DNA of 64,000 nucleotides, from the NCBI RefSeq assembly GCF_024464595.1, contig NZ_JANHAW010000002.1, forward strand, positions 1,302,001-1,366,000. Reading direction: 5' to 3'. The notes beneath the pieces were generated by a model that was not told where the DNA came from, made no database searches, and worked only from the letters and a program-made list of their open reading frames with translations. Each line of letters opens with the position of its first letter. Positions within the stretch are counted from its first letter, which is position 1. A program made the position numbers and the translations under genes. This document shows positions 3,433 through 57,006 of the stretch, piece by piece. The DNA is from Halobellus litoreus. Its GTDB lineage: Archaea > Halobacteriota > Halobacteria > Halobacteriales > Haloferacaceae.

Positions 3433-3496
3433 CGCTACGAAGATTCGGATCAGAGCGTGACGAGCGTTTATATGCGAGCGAGCGGCCAGCACCGCC

Positions 3497-3603
3497 GTGA
3501 TATAAGCGGGATCCCGCGTCGGGCCGCGGTTGCTCGACACGCCGGCGCGGGGACGAGCGGTCGCGATCGGAAATCGCGACTCTGTGTGTCGACTGTTAGC
3601 AAC
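3497..3603 (+). ncRNA. Structured RNA family, copy A
   Basis: A TATA box TTTATAT lies at 3467-3473 and the predicted transcript starts at the GTGA at 3497. Helix S1 is CCCGCG (3513-3518) with CGCGGG (3546-3551). The S1 loop holds GTTGC-TCGACAC (3529-3540), which pairs beyond S1 with GTGTCGA (3586-3592) and, after the bulge CTGTTA, with GCAAC (3599-3603). That makes an H-type pseudoknot. A perfect hairpin TCGCGAT/ATCGCGA (3561-3567/3573-3579) sits between the two 3' strands. The locus lies between tRNA-Gly and a small membrane protein. It overlaps no convincing open frame. Three more copies are at 28876, 46346 and 56929. The function is unknown. Confidence 0.72.
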
Positions 3604-28740: not shown

Positions 28741-28875
28741 TCGGCTCCACGCTCGCGGACCGGTTCGACGGCACTGTTCGGACCGACGGCTCTGATCGGT
28801 TCGACGCTCACTGACCGCCGTCGAGAGTCGCGATCGGGACGAGCGTTTATACCCGATGACGGGACCATCGCCGCC

Positions 28876-28990
28876 GTGACGTGAGTTCCACCCCGCGTCG
28901 GGAAGCGGTTGTCCGGCACGTCGGCGCGGGGGACGCGAGGACGGCTGGGACATCAGCCCGTATTCGCAGCGAGTGCCGGCTGTTCGCAAC
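28876..28990 (+). ncRNA. Structured RNA family, copy B
   Basis: TATA box TTTATA at 28846-28851; transcript expected from GTGACGTGAG at 28876. Helix S1 is CCCCGCG (28891-28897) with CGCGGGG (28925-28931). The pseudoknot helix S2 is GTTGT-CCGGCAC (28908-28919) with GTGCCGG (28973-28979), bulge CTGTTC, then GCAAC (28986-28990). The variable hairpin is GGCTG/CAGCC (28943-28947/28954-28958). This is the cleanest copy and the best seed for a search model. It sits in the gap between the nitrilase gene and the convergent dihydroorotase gene. Confidence 0.75.
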
Positions 28991-37048: not shown

Positions 37049-37545
37049 ACGGCAGAGAGAGCTCGGCTCCCGTCGGTCCGATTCGGACTGACGAGGAAAG
37101 TCCCCCCACCGTCCGGACGGGTGACCGGGCGCAAGCCCGGAGTCGGAGACGGCTGGCTCTGGAACAGAGACGAGACCCCTCGACCCGACCGATGAGACGC
37201 GAGCGGCGGTCTCCGCCGCCGGCGCACGCGGGGCGACCCGCGAGCGCGCGAACCGACCCGTAAGGGAAGGGAGTTGACCCGTCGAGGGCAGCGCAGTCGC
37301 GCTACGACTGCGAAACGTGAGCGGCGTCAGCCGCGAACGGCGCGGTCGTAGCGCGATCGCCCGAGATGGCGGCAGCCATCTCGTCGCGTACGAGCGCAGT
37401 GCGCCCGTGCGCCGACGGTCGAGAACGGATGGAACGGCGAATCCTCACCGGTGCAAGTCCGCGCCGCCAAGGTAGTCCGGACAGGGCGCGGCCGCTCAGC
37501 CGAATGCCGAGACGAACAGAAGGGGGCTTACTCCTCTCAGCCGCT
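37049..37545 (+). ncRNA. rnpB: RNase P RNA
   Basis: The catalytic RNA of RNase P, which trims tRNA 5' ends. The universal 5' core GAGGAAAGTCC is at 37093-37103 and its P4 partner ACAGAAGGGGGCTTA at 37516-37530. The ends pair as helix P1: GGCAGAGAG (37051-37059) with CTCTCAGCC (37534-37542), with one A-A mismatch. A GCTTATTGG element at about 37019-37027 lies the right distance upstream for transcription from about 37049. The frames crossing this region are not genes. The ends are accurate to about five bases, and the length near 497 nt is somewhat long. Confidence 0.94.
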
Positions 37546-46206: not shown

Positions 46207-46345
46207 ACCCGCACCTGCAACGCCCGACGGCAAAAATCCTCACTTCGACGACGGCCGGGTCGAACCGGCCGCATCGGGCGGCCGTGGCACCCTCGGGAGT
46301 CGCGGCCGGCGAGGGTTTATCACCGATCGGGAGGCCAGCCCCGCC

Positions 46346-46465
46346 GTGACGTGAGACGCGCCCCGCGTCGAAACGCGGTCGTTCGGCACGGCGACGGGGG
46401 ATCACGGCCGTCAGCGGGACGACGAGGCTGATCGGCCGGCCGGCGGTGTGCCGACTGCTCGCCAA
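46346..46465 (+). ncRNA. Structured RNA family, copy C
   Basis: TATA box TTTATC at 46316-46321; predicted start at GTGACGTGAG, 46346. S1 is CCCCGCG (46361-46367) with CG-A-CGGGG (46392-46399), one bulged A. S2 is TCGGCAC (46383-46389) with GTGCCGA (46448-46454), then bulge CTGCTC; the distal GTCGT/GCCAA part is weak (three of five pairs). A longer variable hairpin uses TCAGC/GCTGA plus GGCCG/CGGCC. It lies in the 340-base gap 46207-46546, which otherwise holds only the promoters of the flanking genes. Confidence 0.7.
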
Positions 46466-56879: not shown

Positions 56880-56928
56880 GGCGTTCTTCGGGCTGACGTT
56901 TATATACGATCGCGGGCCCAGAGCCCGC

Positions 56929-57006
56929 GTGACGTAGCACCCGGCCCGCGCCGGTCAGCGGTTGCCCGACACGCCGTCGCGGGATCGTCCCTGTCGGCTG
57001 TTCGCC
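56929..57006 (+). ncRNA. Structured RNA family, copy D (short form)
   Basis: TATA box TTTATATA at 56899-56906; predicted start at GTGACGTAGC, 56929. S1 is CCCGCG (56945-56950) with CGCGGG (56978-56983). S2 is CCGACA (56966-56971) with TGTCGG (56992-56997), followed by the conserved bulge CTGTTC and GC. The variable hairpin found in the other copies is gone; only eight bases join the two 3' strands. It fills the gap between the DHH gene and the convergent gene that ends at 57007. Confidence 0.68.

Follow-up and report, generated by a model that had tools for sequence, protein, structure and literature searches.

The window analysed here is a stretch of 64,000 nucleotides of the Halobellus litoreus genome. 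It contains four loci on the plus strand (3467-3603, 28846-28990, 46316-46465 and 56899-57006, below copies A, B, C and D), for which the original prediction had proposed a dispersed, structured RNA gene with a common series of sequence blocks. All four carried the blocks at the predicted positions. The core pattern had four exact matches in the window, all on the plus strand, while 0.33 ± 0.59 were expected from shuffled sequences; a fifth match has three mismatches. The pattern that runs from the promoter to GTGA likewise had four matches, against 0 expected. An archaeal RNase P RNA at 37051-37542, also in the window, carries a large insertion (about 210 nt at one gap of the model).

Each copy begins with its own TATA box and a promoter element of the consensus CGnGRCCA at -16 to -9. 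For copy A, the sequence gives the TATA box TTTATATG at 3467-3474 and the element AGCGGCCA at 3481-3488. The same pair of features was found in copy B (TTTATACC, 28846-28853; CGGGACCA, 28860-28867), copy C (TTTATCAC, 46316-46323; an element with the 3' end GGCCA, 46330-46337) and copy D (TTTATATA, 56899-56906; CGGGCCCA, 56913-56920). In 4 of 4 loci the first T of the TATA box lies 30 nt upstream of the G of GTG, as had been claimed. The box that follows had been described as GTGACGT, which was wrong. The conserved box is RTG-NNN-(TGA/TAG/TAA), and it reads GTG ATA TAA in copy A (3497-3505), GTG ACG TGA in copies B (28876-28884) and C (46346-46354), and GTG ACG TAG in copy D (56929-56937).

Downstream of the box lie the arms of two helices, S1 and S2. 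Copy A contains the S1 5' arm CCCGCGTCG (3513-3521), the S2 5' arm GCGGTTGCTCGACAC (3526-3540), the S1 3' arm CGGCGCGGG (3543-3551) and the S2 3' arm with the tail GTGTCGACTGTTAGC (3586-3600), and its predicted RNA extends over about 3497-3602. In copy B the core occupies 28892-28930 (S1 28892-28900 with 28922-28930; S2 5' arm 28905-28919), and the S2 3' arm and tail are GTGCCGGCTGTTCGC (28973-28987). The core of copy C lies at 46362-46400 (S1 46362-46370 with 46392-46400; S2 5' arm 46375-46389; S2 3' arm and tail GTGCCGACTGCTCGC, 46448-46462) and that of copy D at 56945-56983 (S1 56945-56953 with 56975-56983; S2 5' arm 56958-56972; S2 3' arm and tail CTGTCGGCTGTTCGC, 56991-57005). By inspection, S1 forms 8 of 9 pairs in copy C and also in copy D. 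Copy D has a short L3 loop of 7 nt and a total length of about 77 nt. Predicted RNAs of the family range from about 77 to 200 nt, which supports the minimal length near 80 nt in the original prediction.

We counted the copies in the whole genome (3.86 Mb). The core pattern gave 27 exact copies, 14 with one mismatch and four genuine ones with two mismatches, while the reversed pattern, used as a control, gave 2 + 2 matches. Two weaker matches (L046, L047) proved false on inspection, and one copy (L018) appears degenerate. The family therefore comprises 45 copies by pattern and 49 matches by covariance model, and the expectation of dozens per genome was borne out.

The fold of the RNA is an H-type pseudoknot. 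It consists of S1 (9-10 bp), S2 (7 bp and an imperfect lower part) and the constant tail CUGUUCGC. The elements follow one another in a set order: TATA box, CGnGRCCA, RTG-NNN-stop, 6-7 nt, S1 5' arm, 4-5 nt, S2 5' arm (which starts GCGRNNG), 2 nt, S1 3' arm, the L3 loop, and the S2 3' arm ending in CTGTTCGC. L3 varies from 7 to over 100 nt among copies. S1 is formed by CCCGCGTCG and CGACGCGGG, so that the CCCGCG and CGCGGG blocks are partners of each other. The CGRCAC block pairs in S2 with the GTGYCG block just before CTGTTCGC; the upper part of S2 joins YCGGCAC with GTGCCGR, and the lower part joins GCGRNYG with CTGTTCGC by G-C and G-U pairs, two positions being mismatched. S1 is interlocked with S2. 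A linker of 4-5 nt would have to bridge the lower part of S2; this is tight, and S1 may therefore be unable to form together with the complete S2.

Single-sequence folding of the copies missed the pseudoknot and performed no better than on shuffles. Such programs do not predict pseudoknots and are blind to this fold, therefore comparative evidence was needed. Within Halobellus, S1 was paired in 97.8%, 4 of its 9 pairs showed double changes, and the covariation of S1 plus S2 was 0.143 (shuffled: 0.106 ± 0.005). We further analyzed 30 members outside the Halobellus type in an alignment of the 57-nt core joined to the 15-nt tail, with L3 omitted. In this set 90.6% of cells were paired, compared with 79.4 ± 0.6 in shuffles, a percentage that is inflated because members were chosen partly on S1/S2 pairing. 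Such a choice does not explain the variety of S1 and S2 pair types. There were 81 doubly changed cells (shuffled: 20.4 ± 4.3), and covariation was 0.379, compared with 0.150 ± 0.011 in shuffles and at most 0.138 in slid structures. Across the order S1 was paired in 99.3%, and double changes affected 7 of the 9 pairs of S1 and 4 of the 15 pairs of S2. The copy number and the comparative evidence for the fold thus bear out a multicopy structured RNA family, and it is practically certain that the four loci are members of a real RNA gene family.

The position of the box relative to the promoter points to the 5' end of the RNA. Exact TATA spacing was found in 40 of 45 copies, where the first T of TTTATA is located 59 nt before the GCGG anchor and 30 nt before RTG. 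Among 336 ATG-start ORFs of the same genus, TATA-like motifs peak at -30, and nearly all lie between -35 and -27. The family has the arrangement of a leaderless unit, with the TATA box about 30 nt before the start codon, and the identical spacing at leaderless protein genes supports GTG as the predicted start site. Of the protein-coding transcripts of Haloferax volcanii, 72% lack a leader, and GUG is the first codon of 118 leaderless transcripts (PMC4983044). Because of the TATA peak at -30 and these statistics, RUG is most probably the 5' end of the predicted RNA. Weak translation of leaderless GUG has been reported in haloarchaea (PMC4983044), which counts against the ribosome docking proposed below.

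We observed that the 5' box has the form of a minimal leaderless ORF, RUG-NNN-stop, in which all three stop codons are used. For its analysis, 148 members were gathered by S1, S2 and tail only, with the box unused. Codon 1 was GTG in 139 and ATG in three of them; the frame was displaced by 1 nt in four members, and two read ACG ATG TGA. After re-registration of the displaced ones, codon 3 was TGA, TAG or TAA in 148 of 148. TGG at codon 3 was found in 0 of 148, while about 19 would be expected if purines were free at both positions (Fisher p = 1.4e-20, a value that overstates the strength of the avoidance because related copies are not independent). Codon 2 is free; Halobellus mostly has ACG, ATC or ACC there, and members outside the genus have diverse codons. 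S1 begins at +16 to +18 from RUG, a nearly fixed distance. The original statement that no protein frame explains the conservation thus stands for the body of the RNA and fails for its first nine nucleotides. The RNA as a small protein gene was rejected: the stop is at codon 3, the body is conserved as helices with compensatory changes, and L3 lengths are arbitrary.

Some loci had been retrieved with models or patterns that contain the box. Therefore we made a second test which did not depend on the RNA. A structure-free search for the promoter followed by RTG-NNN-TRA gave 178 exact matches, spread over 58 of the 195 order genomes searched (summed by hand), and the reversed pattern gave 0 in the same 195 genomes. 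When TRA was replaced by TGB (three codons), there were 11 matches in 195 genomes, several of which resemble protein starts (ATG GAC TG.). Most of the structure-free loci examined had the same geometry (S1 at +16 to +18, an S2 about 7 bp long, tail CTGTTCGC), with entirely different sequences in S1 and S2. A few loci were without a clear S1 in a simple helix scan. Two loci of genus g49 (L340, L341) carry start-X-TAA under the promoter and no clear S1, with GTGCTAGC in place of CTGTTCGC; they are possibly a diverged subfamily. We consider start-X-stop to be, with high confidence, a genuine feature of the family.

The covariance model, whose use had been suggested in the original prediction, recovered further copies in the genome and in the order. 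Members were found in at least 122 of 392 genomes and at least 37 of 95 genera. Outside Halobellus the usual count was 1-7 per genome, as a lower bound, since the broad search scored 14 candidates per genome. Halomarina halobia had 31 members, apparently a separate expansion. A match is also present on the Halobellus limi plasmid NZ_CP031312.1. No copies were found in five genomes of the same genus (G001, G008, G010, G012 and G016; G001 and G010 were partly masked). Sampled stretches of four of these five had a GC content of about 43-54%, compared with about 68-70% in copy-rich genomes. Viral contigs gave a single match, which is without the TATA/CGnGRCCA promoter and resembles coding sequence; it was taken as chance.

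The copies are old and positionally stable. Among 40 sampled copies of two other Halobellus species, 30 share flanks with a Halobellus litoreus copy (blastn); for one of the unmatched copies, the Halobellus litoreus site holds a small ORF instead of the RNA. An amidohydrolase gene, dihydroorotase-like in our own reading, has copy B at its 3' end. The DNA downstream of three copies from another taxonomic family (L080, L081, L087) was read as the same gene end, which suggests that this locus is old. Identity between orthologues was 87% in the core, 96% in the tail and 61% in L3 (global alignment). In Halobellus the same type of L3 is seen at separate loci, and orthologues differ in type; exchange among copies is likely, which suggests gene conversion.

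These observations bear on the possibility that the family is a non-autonomous, MITE-like element spread by transposition. The high copy numbers in Halobellus and in Halomarina halobia (31), as well as the recurrence of L3 types at different loci, would fit such an element. We consider it very unlikely, since copies mostly occupy orthologous sites between species, a small ORF and no clean empty insertion site stands in place of the RNA in the sole absence examined, and the unit is under structural selection. Separately, MITE-like insertions with inverted repeats were seen inside L3 of one copy (L042, C1:394586) and just 3' of two others (L067, L069).

Whereas the original prediction had inferred an RNA acting in trans, the constancy of the chromosomal positions is also compatible with local action. 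In such a cis role, a copy whose regulon is active could act on its surroundings through antisense transcription that reaches the 3' end of the gene downstream, through promoter interference, or as a DNA or R-loop mark for the HerA/pilus machinery. Orthologous positions in 30 of 40 sampled copies speak for it, and so does the orientation bias: between same-direction gene pairs the RNA was antisense in 23 cases and sense in 5 (p = 0.0009), and the downstream gene lies on the opposite strand in 31 of 45 copies. Because gene calling relied on a simple GC-frame rule, individual assignments may be wrong. The neighbour genes are diverse, however, and what is conserved is the RNA structure and the ORF, not complementarity to neighbours, while plain inheritance would equally yield positional stability. 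A locus-specific role in cis thus seems unlikely. The orientation also bears on a 5' leader, riboswitch or attenuator of the downstream gene. Some copies, for example copy C, precede a co-directional gene, but the opposite-strand position of that gene in 31 of 45 copies already contradicts this reading for most copies. We rejected it as extremely improbable.

We compared the family with known RNAs. Rfam 15 at gathering score identified in the window only the RNase P RNA and two tRNAs, and at copies A and D only chance-level scores were obtained. C/D or H/ACA guide RNAs were rejected, as the conserved columns have no such boxes and there was no real match to an Rfam snoRNA. An HDV-like ribozyme was rejected too: the nested double pseudoknot with a P3 hairpin is absent, and there is no room for P3 because only 2 nt separate the S2 5' arm from the S1 3' arm. 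A guide RNA with a variable target region was also rejected; L3 is not a guide because it is poorly conserved between orthologues (61%, compared with 87% for the core and 96% for the tail) and its types recur elsewhere. The family is undescribed in Rfam and in the openly searchable full-text literature.

In the Halobellus litoreus genome the promoter pattern is also found in front of protein genes whose ATG has the same offset. There were four protein matches with zero mismatches: DUF7310, a T2SSE (TadA/VirB11-like) ATPase, DUF7283 and DUF7382. The first three genes lie together at C2:816-821 kb (816000-821040, L247), adjoined by a weak T2SSF match, and DUF7382 is on C1. A HerA-like ATPase gene is divergent from the DUF7382 gene and has a slightly offset promoter element. 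Two MinD-like ATPase genes match the promoter with one mismatch. Promoter-bearing protein-gene sites besides L247 are C2:854242, C1:991722 and C1:1311039. Across the order, the ATG form had matches in 107 of 195 genomes, while the reversed pattern had about nine matches (hand count). The proteins include HerA-like proteins, MinD-like proteins with DUF7125, DUF7310, DUF7857 and DUF6735, and the remaining matches were ATG-X-stop RNAs or could not be interpreted. It is very probable that an order-wide promoter class is common to the RNAs and the protein genes. Neither this promoter shared with genes of the pilus and DNA-transfer type nor the start-X-stop ORF and the pseudoknot had been part of the original prediction. 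From the sequences we infer that these genes and the RNAs may form a regulon around a machine of the type-IV-pilus or DNA-transfer type.

Measured from the first base of the start codon, an initiating ribosome has its leading edge at about 15-17 nt. S1 begins at this distance, and therefore we propose that the ribosome would be seated with the pseudoknot intact. Transcription from TATA and CGnGRCCA would start at RUG, and the ribosome would bind the 5'-terminal RUG as on leaderless mRNAs. It would make at most one peptide bond before the stop and could dock without unfolding the pseudoknot. The RNA would then be a decoy for leaderless initiation or a ribosome-borne regulator, expressed alongside the pilus/DNA-transfer-type genes when the regulon is active, and its high copy number would provide dosage. 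That docking is the function, and the RNA a ribosome-associated regulator or decoy, is a tentative reading of the sequence features, to which we give slightly less than an even chance.

The main rival to ribosome docking is an ordinary structured trans-acting (protein-binding) sRNA, in which RUG-X-stop merely shields the body from ribosomes. RUG might be kept merely as transcription-start context, with the stop added against translation: the promoter class serves ATG leaderless genes at the same position, so the RNAs would inherit RUG, and a stop would protect the fold from unfolding by ribosomes. However, a superfluous start would be expected to drift, whereas virtually all members retain it, with exchange of G and A. 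The stop could also sit at codon 2, 4 or 5, yet it is always at codon 3, and the distance to S1 is nearly fixed. We regard a shielding role as rather unlikely. Ribosome docking, taken together with the promoter, may define a new class of regulatory RNA, in which a ribosome on a two-codon ORF rests against a pseudoknot and which is maintained in tens of dispersed copies and switched together with a pilus/HerA machine; this broader proposal is possible and still more tentative.

Several known systems share single features with the family. The bar RNA of phage lambda is a two-codon minigene that engages ribosomes and is linked to a single codon and the tRNA of that codon. It has the same ORF of start, one codon and stop, but it is no dispersed structured-RNA family, whereas the present family is leaderless, has a free codon 2 and continues into a pseudoknot. 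In retroviral stop-codon readthrough an H-type pseudoknot lies a few nt after the stop codon, as it does here; unlike such recoding elements, the present family has no conserved downstream frame, and L3 lengths ignore the frame. LhrC of Listeria has far fewer copies than the present family. It is likewise one sRNA in several copies, and the text consulted mentions neither a start-stop ORF nor a promoter shared with a machine (PMC4132741). The Ups/Ced systems of Sulfolobales are co-regulated archaeal pili and DNA transfer, analogous to the protein genes of the promoter, but they consist of other proteins, and the portion of the source consulted mentions no RNA family (PMC11868833). In Haloferax volcanii, noncoding sRNAs show ribosome occupancy with no product detected (PMC12482152). 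They are also haloarchaeal, intergenic, noncoding and ribosome-associated, the last being only proposed for the present family, but no multicopy family, start-X-stop or pseudoknot was described for them (PMC12482152). A family that unites dispersed copies, a leaderless two-codon ORF at a fixed distance from a pseudoknot and a promoter shared with pilus/HerA/MinD genes is not otherwise known.

In summary, the family offers one testable explanation for the unexplained ribosome-occupied noncoding sRNAs of haloarchaea. Through the promoter class, the RNAs are connected with genes for pili and for HerA-like and MinD-like proteins, which makes them part of a candidate regulon that could serve DNA exchange or attachment to surfaces. 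With one to some fifty copies per genome, the family is also a natural experiment in the expansion of an RNA gene family.
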